Source: Halovivax cerinus
GTDB lineage: Archaea > Halobacteriota > Halobacteria > Halobacteriales > Natrialbaceae
DNA length: 64,000 nt
Assembly (NCBI RefSeq): GCF_024498195.1
Contig: NZ_CP101824.1
Location: forward strand, 930,001 to 994,000
Direction of reading: 5' to 3'
The notes under the pieces were generated by a model. The model saw nothing but the letters and a program-made list of their open reading frames with translations. It had not been told where the DNA came from and searched no databases. This document shows, in pieces, positions 39,446 to 40,809 of this stretch. The first letter of the stretch is position 1. The number at the start of each line of letters is the position of its first letter. A program made the position numbers and the translations under genes.

Positions 39446-40039
39446 TCAGAACTGGCGTTCGAGGTCGATCGGGTCCGAGTCGGTGTAGTAGGGTCCGCCG
39501 AGTCGGCCCACGGTCTCGAGTTTCGTCGCGTCGATCTGTCCGTCCGTCTGGACGGCCTCGTCGACGTGAACGTGGCGGACGTCGCCGAGCGTCAAGAGAC
39601 GGTCGTGGACGGTCATCGTCCCGTAGAGCGTACACTCCATCGTGACGGCGGCGTCGGCCACGCGCGGCGCGTCGATCGTCTCGCAGGGCGCGCGCTCGAC
39701 CCCCGCGAAGTCGAACTCGTTCTCGTCCGCCTCGAGCGTCGCCGAGGTGGCGTCCATCTCCTCGGCGAGGGCCGCCGTGGCGACGTTCACCGCGAACTCA
39801 CCGGTCTCCAGGACGTTCCGCGGCGTGTCCTTCAGGTCGGCGCGGTCGCCCGCCGGGACGCTGAACGAGACGACCGGCTCGGCCGAGGAGACGTAGTTGT
39901 ACGCCGAGAACGGCGCGAGGTTGTCCACCCCGTCCGGACTCCGCGTCGAGATCCAGGCGATCGGGCGCGGCGAGACGGCGGTCTTGATGATGCGAGCGCG
40001 TTCGCGGGGCGAGAGGTCGGCGACGTCGTGTTCGGTCAC
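39446..40039 (-). CDS. flavin reductase family protein
   Basis: The 197-residue protein has the flavin-reductase-like (FMN-binding split barrel) pattern: SPRPIAWISTRSPDGVDNLA, PFSAYNYVSSAEPVVSFSVP, KDTPRNVLETGEFAVNVATA, and later CTLYGTMTVHDRLLTLGDVR with a GGPYYTD end. It probably binds FMN in the cytoplasm; whether it reduces free flavin is not shown. The start is GTG at 40039, supported by a GCTTTGTAG box at 40061-40069. It is convergent with the HalOD1 gene. Confidence 0.9.
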   Translation of the reverse strand: MTEHDVADLSPRERARIIKTAVSPRPIAWISTRSPDGVDNLAPFSAYNYVSSAEPVVSFSVPAGDRADLKDTPRNVLETGEFAVNVATAALAEEMDATSATLEADENEFDFAGVERAPCETIDAPRVADAAVTMECTLYGTMTVHDRLLTLGDVRHVHVDEAVQTDGQIDATKLETVGRLGGPYYTDSDPIDLERQF

Positions 40040-40060
40040 GCGCGTGGATAGCGCCCGTGG

Positions 40061-40069
40061 CTACAAAGC
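40061..40069 (-). promoter_or_regulatory. TATA-like box for the flavin reductase gene
   Basis: Minus-strand GCTTTGTAG lies 22-30 nt before the GTG at 40039, supporting use of this GTG in a leaderless mRNA. Confidence 0.4.
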
Positions 40070-40554
40070 GGTTGTCGAGGCGGGGATCGGAGCGGTCGAT
40101 CGTCGAGGTGGATCGAGGCGTACATTGTCGAGCGGCGGGTACCGAGACAGCCGGTCGTCGAGGCGGCCGTCGAGCGGCCAGACCCGGACGAAACGGTGGC
40201 ATCTCCAGTTGAAACGAAGGGGTCGTCGGCGTCACGTGGCGTTATATTGGTGGCTTCAGAACATTGATTCCGCGCTCATACCAGTAACTATATTGTCCAT
40301 CACGTCAATCACCCACACGGAAGCCGCGTCCACACGGGCACGAAGTGCCCCGGGTGTTTGGGCACCCGAGGCGTGGCTTCCAAACCCACACGAGGGTTCT
40401 GGCAGCCATGATTGCGTACACACCACCACGACAAAAAGGTCTCGCCCGCTCTCGATCTAGAGAGTCGAAACGCTGTCCGCCGTTCACGTTCGATTTCCAA
40501 AGTCGGTGGTCGAGAGTCACCGAGTGGTCGGACGACCCCTCGGGGTGACCGCGG
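40070..40554. other. intergenic stretch holding a structured element
   Basis: About 490 bp without a credible gene. The middle part (40245-40310) is AT-rich, and 40311-40392 contains the hairpin element with flanking direct repeats described separately. A second small inverted repeat, CTCTCGATCTAGAGAG, occurs at 40451-40466. Confidence 0.6.
40311..40392. repeat. compact multi-hairpin element flanked by a 9-bp direct repeat
   Basis: GGAAGCCGCG (40319-40328) can pair with CGTGGCTTCC (40372-40381) through ten pairs, one G-U. Enclosed are two hairpins: GGGCAC/GTGCCC with loop GAA (40336-40350) and CGGGTG/CACCCG with loop TTTGGG (40351-40368). The 9-mer ACCCACACG flanks the structure at 40311-40319 and 40384-40392. 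This could be a miniature mobile element with a target duplication, an IS200/IS605-type end, or a small structured RNA; none is proven. Confidence 0.7.
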
Positions 40555-40809
40555 ATGACGGCCGCCGACGCATCGAGCGACGCACCCGAGTACAAACCCC
40601 GAGGACGCGAGTGGTACCGGTGTAATCGCGACGTGGCGCCTCACTTCCTCTTTCGGGTCACCGTCGAGTCGCCGGCCACACTGTCGGAGAAGTACGCCGA
40701 CGGCGTCCGATACTGCTGTGAGCACTGTGCGGCCGCGATGAACCTCTCGGACTTCTCCCGGCGGATGAAGCGACACGCCGGACGCGGCGACGAGGGGTCT
40801 GGCGCCTGA
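40555..40809 (+). CDS. small cysteine-containing protein, function unknown
   Basis: The 84-residue protein has a polar N-terminus, YKPRGREWYRCNRD, VAPHFLFRVTVES, and a cysteine cluster YCCEHCAAAMNLSDFSRRMK that together with Cys near residue 23 could bind zinc. It is positively charged compared with most proteins here, as expected of a small nucleic-acid-binding or zinc protein. The family was not identified and the start (ATG 40555) is the only one available near the frame's beginning. Confidence 0.5.
   Translation: MTAADASSDAPEYKPRGREWYRCNRDVAPHFLFRVTVESPATLSEKYADGVRYCCEHCAAAMNLSDFSRRMKRHAGRGDEGSGA

Follow-up and report, generated by a model that had tools for sequence, protein, structure and literature searches.

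The element at positions 40311 to 40392 of the Halovivax cerinus sequence studied here (a stretch of 64,000 nucleotides, hereafter the window) is likely the 5' end of a structured mRNA leader that works as a translational switch by masking the start codon, derived from the early-gene control of viruses or plasmids and multiplied in the Natrialbaceae. The leader family is so far unlisted as an RNA structure, and about thirty copies of it are found in the Halovivax genome before genes of small zinc-finger-like proteins. Many haloarchaeal mRNAs have no leader and, to our knowledge, natural RNA switches are hardly known in haloarchaea. The leader is present in about half of the Halobacteria genomes sampled, without an Rfam match in the sequences tried. 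Plasmid-borne members occur in Halobacterium salinarum and Haloarcula marismortui, and weaker ones in haloviruses. It provides a handle both on the work of the 1990s on the early genes and antisense RNA of phiH1 and on the many unassigned small proteins with Cys motifs.

In the mechanism that we propose, transcription would start on the + strand at the first G of a stem, P1. With P1 closed the start codon would be free, and when P1 is opened or invaded its 3' strand would pair with the start region, hiding the start codon. The short ORF of the leader would be coupled to, or fused with, a small Cys-motif protein, probably zinc-binding. The source would have been a module of haloviruses and plasmids made of a divergent winged-helix regulator, a promoter, the leader and a small SWIM/CxxC gene, later multiplied in the Natrialbaceae (Halovivax), mostly without the divergent gene. 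The parts found in the window are the following.

40289..40294, + strand: TATA-like box TATATT, its first T exactly 30 nt ahead of the first G of P1.
40319-40381, + strand: structured core of the leader, 63 nt, matched by the covariance model R2 (fold and covariance model).
40319..40331, + strand: 5' strand of P1 plus extension, GGAAGCCGCGTCC (fold and covariation).
40336..40350, + strand: P2 hairpin GGGCAC-GAA-GTGCCC, whose arm in longer copies is a likely H-type pseudoknot.
40352..40367, + strand: P3 hairpin GGGTG/CACCC with a variable loop (fold and covariation).
40368..40381, + strand: 3' strand of P1, in which CGTGGCT at 40372-40378 complements the start region.
40382..40398, + strand: P4 hairpin AACCC/GGGTT, judged by eye and uncounted, its 5' arm and loop holding the right-hand ACCCACACG.
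40404..40410, + strand: start-codon region AGCCATG, a partial repeat of the P1 5' strand.
40408..40548, + strand: first ORF, short, 46 aa (MIAYTPPRQKGLARSRS...), with a conserved AAA as codon 10 at 40435-40437.
40555..40809, + strand: second ORF, 84 aa, a Cys-motif protein of a paralogous family, with the first Cys changed to Trp here.

The initial annotation had described an outer stem, two inner hairpins and a 9-mer on both sides, and this description is exact base for base. The outer stem GGAAGCCGCG/CGTGGCTTCC spans 40319 to 40381 and encloses GGGCAC/GTGCCC and CGGGTG/CACCCG as hairpins, and ACCCACACG stands at 40311-40319 and again at 40384-40392. The + strand RNA of 40300-40400 folds with -49.5 kcal/mol (z -4.3, none of 200 shuffles equal), and the - strand RNA of the same region has a z of -2.0, equalled by 5 of 200 shuffles.

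The same annotation proposed a miniature inverted-repeat element with target duplication or the end of an IS200/IS605/IS1341 element, with a small structured RNA as another option. The latter is supported by our comparisons, in which the element appears as the structured 5' part of an mRNA. A mobile element would fit the many dispersed copies and the presence or absence between species. The 9-bp repeat is indeed present on both sides, but it does not form one unit with the element; the left ACCCACACG lies inside the spacer between TATA box and transcript start and shares the first G of the stem, and the right one belongs to a separate hairpin beyond it. A flanking 9-bp pair with at most one mismatch was found in only one of 30 own-genome rows (L057, one of the 30, was read on the wrong strand), namely that of the window itself, and the repeat is a chance one. 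No duplication is shared by the copies. The search of the genome and its relatives suggested by the annotation found matches recurring in both, so that the element is not single copy, and the covariance analysis of homologues, also suggested there, found compensatory changes in the stems. Conservation extends over the promoter, the leader and the first codons of the gene, and the position of the element is tied to promoter and reading frame by the fixed TATA spacing and the conserved start codon. At the locus itself, the genomes G000, G004 and G003 carry the element between the same two neighbours, which from their sequences we take to be a flavin-reductase-like gene and Hef. The closest match in G002 is found 2.2 kb ahead of Hef. 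The interval measures 149 bp in G001 and 1,037 bp in the window, about 0.9 kb being missing at this one locus; the whole cassette of leader and genes is absent there, and what remains is not an empty site that has lost the 82-bp element and kept a single ACCCACACG. Both mobile-element readings are extremely improbable and, as formulated, refuted.

Searched with a 101-base query, the own genome yielded 20 places at E <= 0.001, and with a 201-base query 27 at E <= 1. A covariance model built from 23 own-genome copies (R1) gave 36 matches there at E <= 0.1, two of them reverse-strand echoes, and 31 at E <= 1e-5, which include the 23 seeds by construction. Five Halovivax genomes contained 24-35 matches each at E <= 0.01, and the weak R1 matches beyond Natrialbaceae had mostly the same architecture. 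A second model, R2, was built from 42 cores including diverged ones, which came from the R1 search, a procedure that favours the structure. The window core scores 66.3 bits with R2, its genome copy (L052) being among the 42 seeds. With strict filters, at which weak matches are lost, R2 matched in 191 of 391 sampled Halobacteria genomes and 65 of 86 genera. In the sample of the phylum 20 of 294 genomes matched, all from the order of the window, the share of the 294 from outside the class not being given.

A pattern scan of genome contigs retrieved at least 119 stretches, some bacterial. Run on 80 of these, R1 picked up 66 haloarchaeal cores, distributed over 65 loci (E <= 2e-7), and no core in the bacterial contigs among those 80; there were two reverse-strand echoes. 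The family f1 was taken as Natrialbaceae from its named copies (Halovivax, Natrinema, Natrialba, Halopiger, Halostagnicola, Natronorubrum, Natrarchaeobius and others). These named copies were picked with an exact sequence pattern and, because of this selection, the invariant P3 and GAGACG seen in them prove nothing. The covariance models of Rfam 15 gave one chance-level match only on window positions 39900-40700 and, on 13 loci, a neighbouring tRNA and no family for the leader. In titles and abstract openings of the mainly open-access literature we found no description of such a leader.

The 143 Natrialbaceae copies collected reduced to 132 unique ones, L048, L065, L073 and L091 having been omitted by the regular expression, as was L072, which was moved to the diverged set. 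Alignment A4 holds 122 of the 132 (eight were dropped, then L068 and L162 by hand), and A3 (31 copies) and A5 (42) are chosen subsets. The 57 diverged rows include one locus twice (L293 and L317_9161). Loci L243, L248, L255, L288 and L298, near contig ends, and L257, a reverse echo beside L236, were not used. Some loci had arrangements of their own. In the own genome L022 (1407-1541) and L034 (1536-1670) share an almost identical stretch of about 50 nt inserted into the P2 arm, which adds two hairpins, and L024 and L027 (2400272 and 2401415), separated by 1.1 kb, each have the same 76-aa ORF and represent a recent tandem duplication of the leader. Two leaders of Natrinema pallidum (L161, 2858-2925 and 3352-3419) stand about 0.5 kb apart, with P1 GGAGGCC and start region GGAAGCATG. 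L310, L311 and L312 hold three to four leaders within 3-8 kb, and the ORFs behind several of them open with M..NE.SGQE or a like sequence.

The aligned copies share a common order of TATA box, P1 around P2 and P3, P4, (A)GCCATG and short ORF. In 111 of 127 Natrialbaceae copies the distance from the first T of the TATA-like box to the first G of P1 is exactly 30 nt; of the 57 diverged rows, 51 have a T-rich 5-mer at 29-38 nt upstream (a raw count without shuffled control). Since this fixed spacing fits the usual archaeal distance between TATA box and start, transcription probably begins at the first base of P1, which would make 40319 the first base of a + strand transcript. Between the TATA box and the start, dyads with a score of at least 8 were found in 8 of 57 diverged rows versus 0.23% of shuffles, and in none of 131 Natrialbaceae rows (L057 on the wrong strand among them). 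In this position, upstream of diverged leaders such as L286, L285 and L242, there are perfect 22-bp dyads of more than one sequence, and L297 has a related dyad upstream of the TATA box as well. These dyads look operator-like.

The structure was examined in A3, aligned with MAFFT. P1, P2, P3, P5 (a hairpin in the first codons) and the H-type pseudoknot were paired in 94.1% of cells, with double changes at 11 of 31 pairs, and none of 500 shuffles was as good on any of five measures; here and below the aligned sequences are related, so that shuffle counts are not probabilities. P5 itself was paired in 84.4% of cells and broken in several rows. In A5, whose 42 cores include diverged ones, both sides change at 15 of 21 pairs, and on each of the measures none of 500 shuffles did as well. 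P3 covaries in this alignment, which it cannot do in the pattern-selected copies. A conserved structured core with covariation was found in this way for P1 and for P2/P3, and the loops of P3 differ among copies. The pseudoknot alone has double changes at 4 of 4 pairs (reached by 1 of 500 shuffles; 7 of 500 for further pair types), and it is a likely feature of the P2 arm of the longer copies. Sliding the partner by +2 is nearly as good (3 pairs, and 7 double-change cells versus 6), because the arm is CG-repetitive.

Ahead of the ATG, part of the P1 5' strand recurs, and this repeat is consequently complementary to the P1 3' strand. Among the Natrialbaceae, 109 of 128 copies have at least 6 consecutive pairs of this kind, with G-U counted, and in these 128 the mean run was 6.91 with the own partner versus 6.68 with permuted ones, a value reached in none of 2,000 permutations. 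The diverged copies gave a clearer difference (mean run 6.6 versus 4.9 permuted, the largest of 1,500 permuted means being 5.4 and none reaching the observed one) in 56 rows with 30 different P1 octamers, L308 having no ATG in range; 15 of the 56 had a run of 5 pairs or fewer. In these copies P1 ends such as GGTCTTCC, GGGTTCCC, GGTTTGTC, GGCTGTT and GGCCTTC are matched by GAAGACC, GAACCC, GACAAACC, AACAGCC and AAGGCC before the ATG. On A3 alone the start-region pairing was weak, being equalled by 16 of 500 shuffles for cells paired and for covariation score and by 346 of 500 for the number of covarying pairs, and 6 of 31 copies have a C-A mismatch at one central pair. The sequences, weakly in the case of A3, contain an alternative pairing at the start codon of the sort found in expression platforms. 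Being longer than the alternative helix, P1 should prevail as long as nothing opens it.

A covarying core, an A-rich stretch before the P2 3' strand, the likely pseudoknot and the alternative pairing at the start codon are also what a riboswitch would have, with a small molecule or a metal ion, perhaps zinc in view of the genes, binding the P1/P2/P3 core and setting the balance between P1 and the start-region helix. We consider this unlikely, given about thirty copies per genome and the drift of the sequences of P1, P2 and P3 outside the Natrialbaceae, all three of them unlike a conserved pocket.

The genes behind the leaders code in most cases for small proteins with a Cys or SWIM motif. In 74 of the 104 Natrialbaceae copies with 700 nt downstream (L057 being counted on the wrong strand), a short first ORF is followed by one with a zinc-like Cys motif, whose start overlaps the first by 4 nt in 53 of the 74. 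Of the others, 11 have a single ORF with the motif, 18 have neither and one has unread bases, so that the motif appears in the first or adjacent ORF in 85 of 104 copies, a count without shuffled control. In the window the second ORF begins 6 nt past the stop of the first. Among the 57 diverged rows the first ORF was SWIM-like in 18, had another CxxC in 20 and neither in 19; three SWIM-like proteins reach the Pfam cut-off, one exactly at it. The window protein is below all Pfam and NCBIfam cut-offs and has no PHROGs match. It carries WYRC (40555-40809), with Trp for the first motif Cys that seven aligned relatives have; because of this replacement its zinc site may be broken. The steady association with small Cys-motif/SWIM proteins could reflect autoregulation, with translation blocked or released when such a protein, or some other trans factor, attaches to the leader. 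One leader type stands in front of different protein families, and in the ORF or ORFs checked the motif is missing from 18 of the 104 Natrialbaceae rows and from 19 of the 57 diverged ones, all of which speaks against this model, and we give it a low probability.

Within the first ORF, codon 10 is AAA in 123 of 128 Natrialbaceae copies, against a background of 68 AAA versus 154 AAG in 21 ORFs of the window; a p-value for this would not be literal, the copies being related. Because AAA is kept against an AAG-rich background, the constraint is on bases and not on residues. One role of the codon might be that of a TATA box read in reverse, driving an antisense RNA, and another that of the P5 loop. 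The former would make the trigger of the switch a cis-antisense RNA similar to phiH1 Tant, with its promoter in the first codons and the RNA running from the start codon over the leader, the duplex deciding processing or translation. The reverse reading of the codon gives TTTAT/TTTTT some 27 nt from the start codon, the P3 loops vary from copy to copy, and the phiH1 record places the start of Tant 1 nt before the start codon behind T1. Against it, the corresponding hexamers beyond Natrialbaceae, CTTGAA and CAAGAA, are poor TATA boxes, and the AAA may only serve P5. Such a trigger is a real possibility, somewhat short of an even chance.

Returning to the start-codon-masking leader, its probable descent from virus or plasmid early-gene control is suggested by the neighbours of the diverged copies. 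Outside the Natrialbaceae a divergent winged-helix gene is common: searching the 700 nt upstream with an HMM detected one in 38 of the 57 diverged rows (20 seeds, and 18 of the 37 others). The 57 downstream controls had none, the 127 Natrialbaceae rows (L057 on the wrong strand among them) had it in 3 cases, and none was seen at the window copy. Plasmid members scoring 42-64 bits are present in Halobacterium salinarum pHSAL1, Haloarcula marismortui pNG500 and Haladaptatus pallidirubidus, the last with a SWIM zinc finger gene directly after the leader. The gene table of pHSAL1, known to be incomplete, shows nothing on the leader's strand behind it; the 57-bit leader there (L318, 3003-3260) is followed by a 43-aa ORF missing from that table.

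A SWIM-like query found relatives in six halovirus records. The best R2 matches per stretch in BJ1, Humcor1 and DL1, with filters off, reached 22.5, 17.3 and 16.0 bits (E 6e-4, 0.015 and 0.034), and with default filters BJ1 was the only one of the three reported. All three precede an operon with a SWIM-like gene. A fourth-best match (15.7 bits, E 0.039) lies between the BJ1 regulators gp20 and gp21. Matching start regions were found in all four, GACAGC with GCTGTC thrice (BJ1, Humcor1 and DL1) and GACCC with GGGTC once. The BJ1 neighbour gp06 is annotated as a winged-helix repressor, the leftward neighbour in Humcor1 is unnamed, and the one in DL1 is annotated rightward, yet leftward in a sister record. 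Viral pattern scans gave one core-like match, in an IMG/VR contig (L115, 8514-8577), a 36-bit core within an open frame, where the TATA-like box stands too near and the start region does not match. Five contigs from later scans looked like chance on inspection, one further scan had no matches, and BLASTN of one leader against phages found three bacterial phages only (E 0.2-0.7). A much wider reading is a class-wide archaeal RNA switch of viral origin, in which every leader could conceal its start codon with the 3' strand of P1. Since loops and P1 sequence differ from copy to copy, the thirty or so domesticated Halovivax leaders, each with a private antisense RNA at its start codon, would act as mutually insulated sense/antisense switches for small zinc proteins. 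We regard this as speculative and rather improbable.

The system most similar in plan is that of phiH1. Its record has mapped starts for the early transcripts T4 and T1-T3, whose leaders measure 174 and 151 nt, and divergent genes RepR (with T4) and Imm (with T1-T3). The T4 leader starts exactly with a long stem enclosing two hairpins, and the T1 leader starts AGAGCAGG..CCTGCTC and has AGAGCATG as its start region. As far as the consulted parts of PMC4284463, PMC8707807 and PMC6210493 describe it, phiH1 has a repressor and an antisense RNA that exposes T1 to an RNase. The two systems share the stem-and-hairpin arrangement and, in many of the diverged copies, a divergent regulator gene. This is a likeness of plan and not a demonstrated homology, since R2 gave no match at the T4 or T1 leader of phiH1. 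Unlike phiH1, the Natrialbaceae copies mostly miss the divergent gene. Small haloarchaeal proteins with CxxC pairs are also known as the C(P)XCG zinc-finger micro-proteins of Haloferax (PMC11241148), although the opening of that abstract names no leader and the window protein falls under the family cut-offs. Translational riboswitches share with our family the covarying core and the alternative pairing at the start codon, but the leaders differ from them in having many copies per genome, no Rfam match and no known ligand. Finally, the S15 ribosomal leader of Halobacteria is, from the portion of PMC7247131 consulted, another structured mRNA leader from the same class of archaea; it precedes rpsO, whereas the family described here precedes small Cys-motif proteins.
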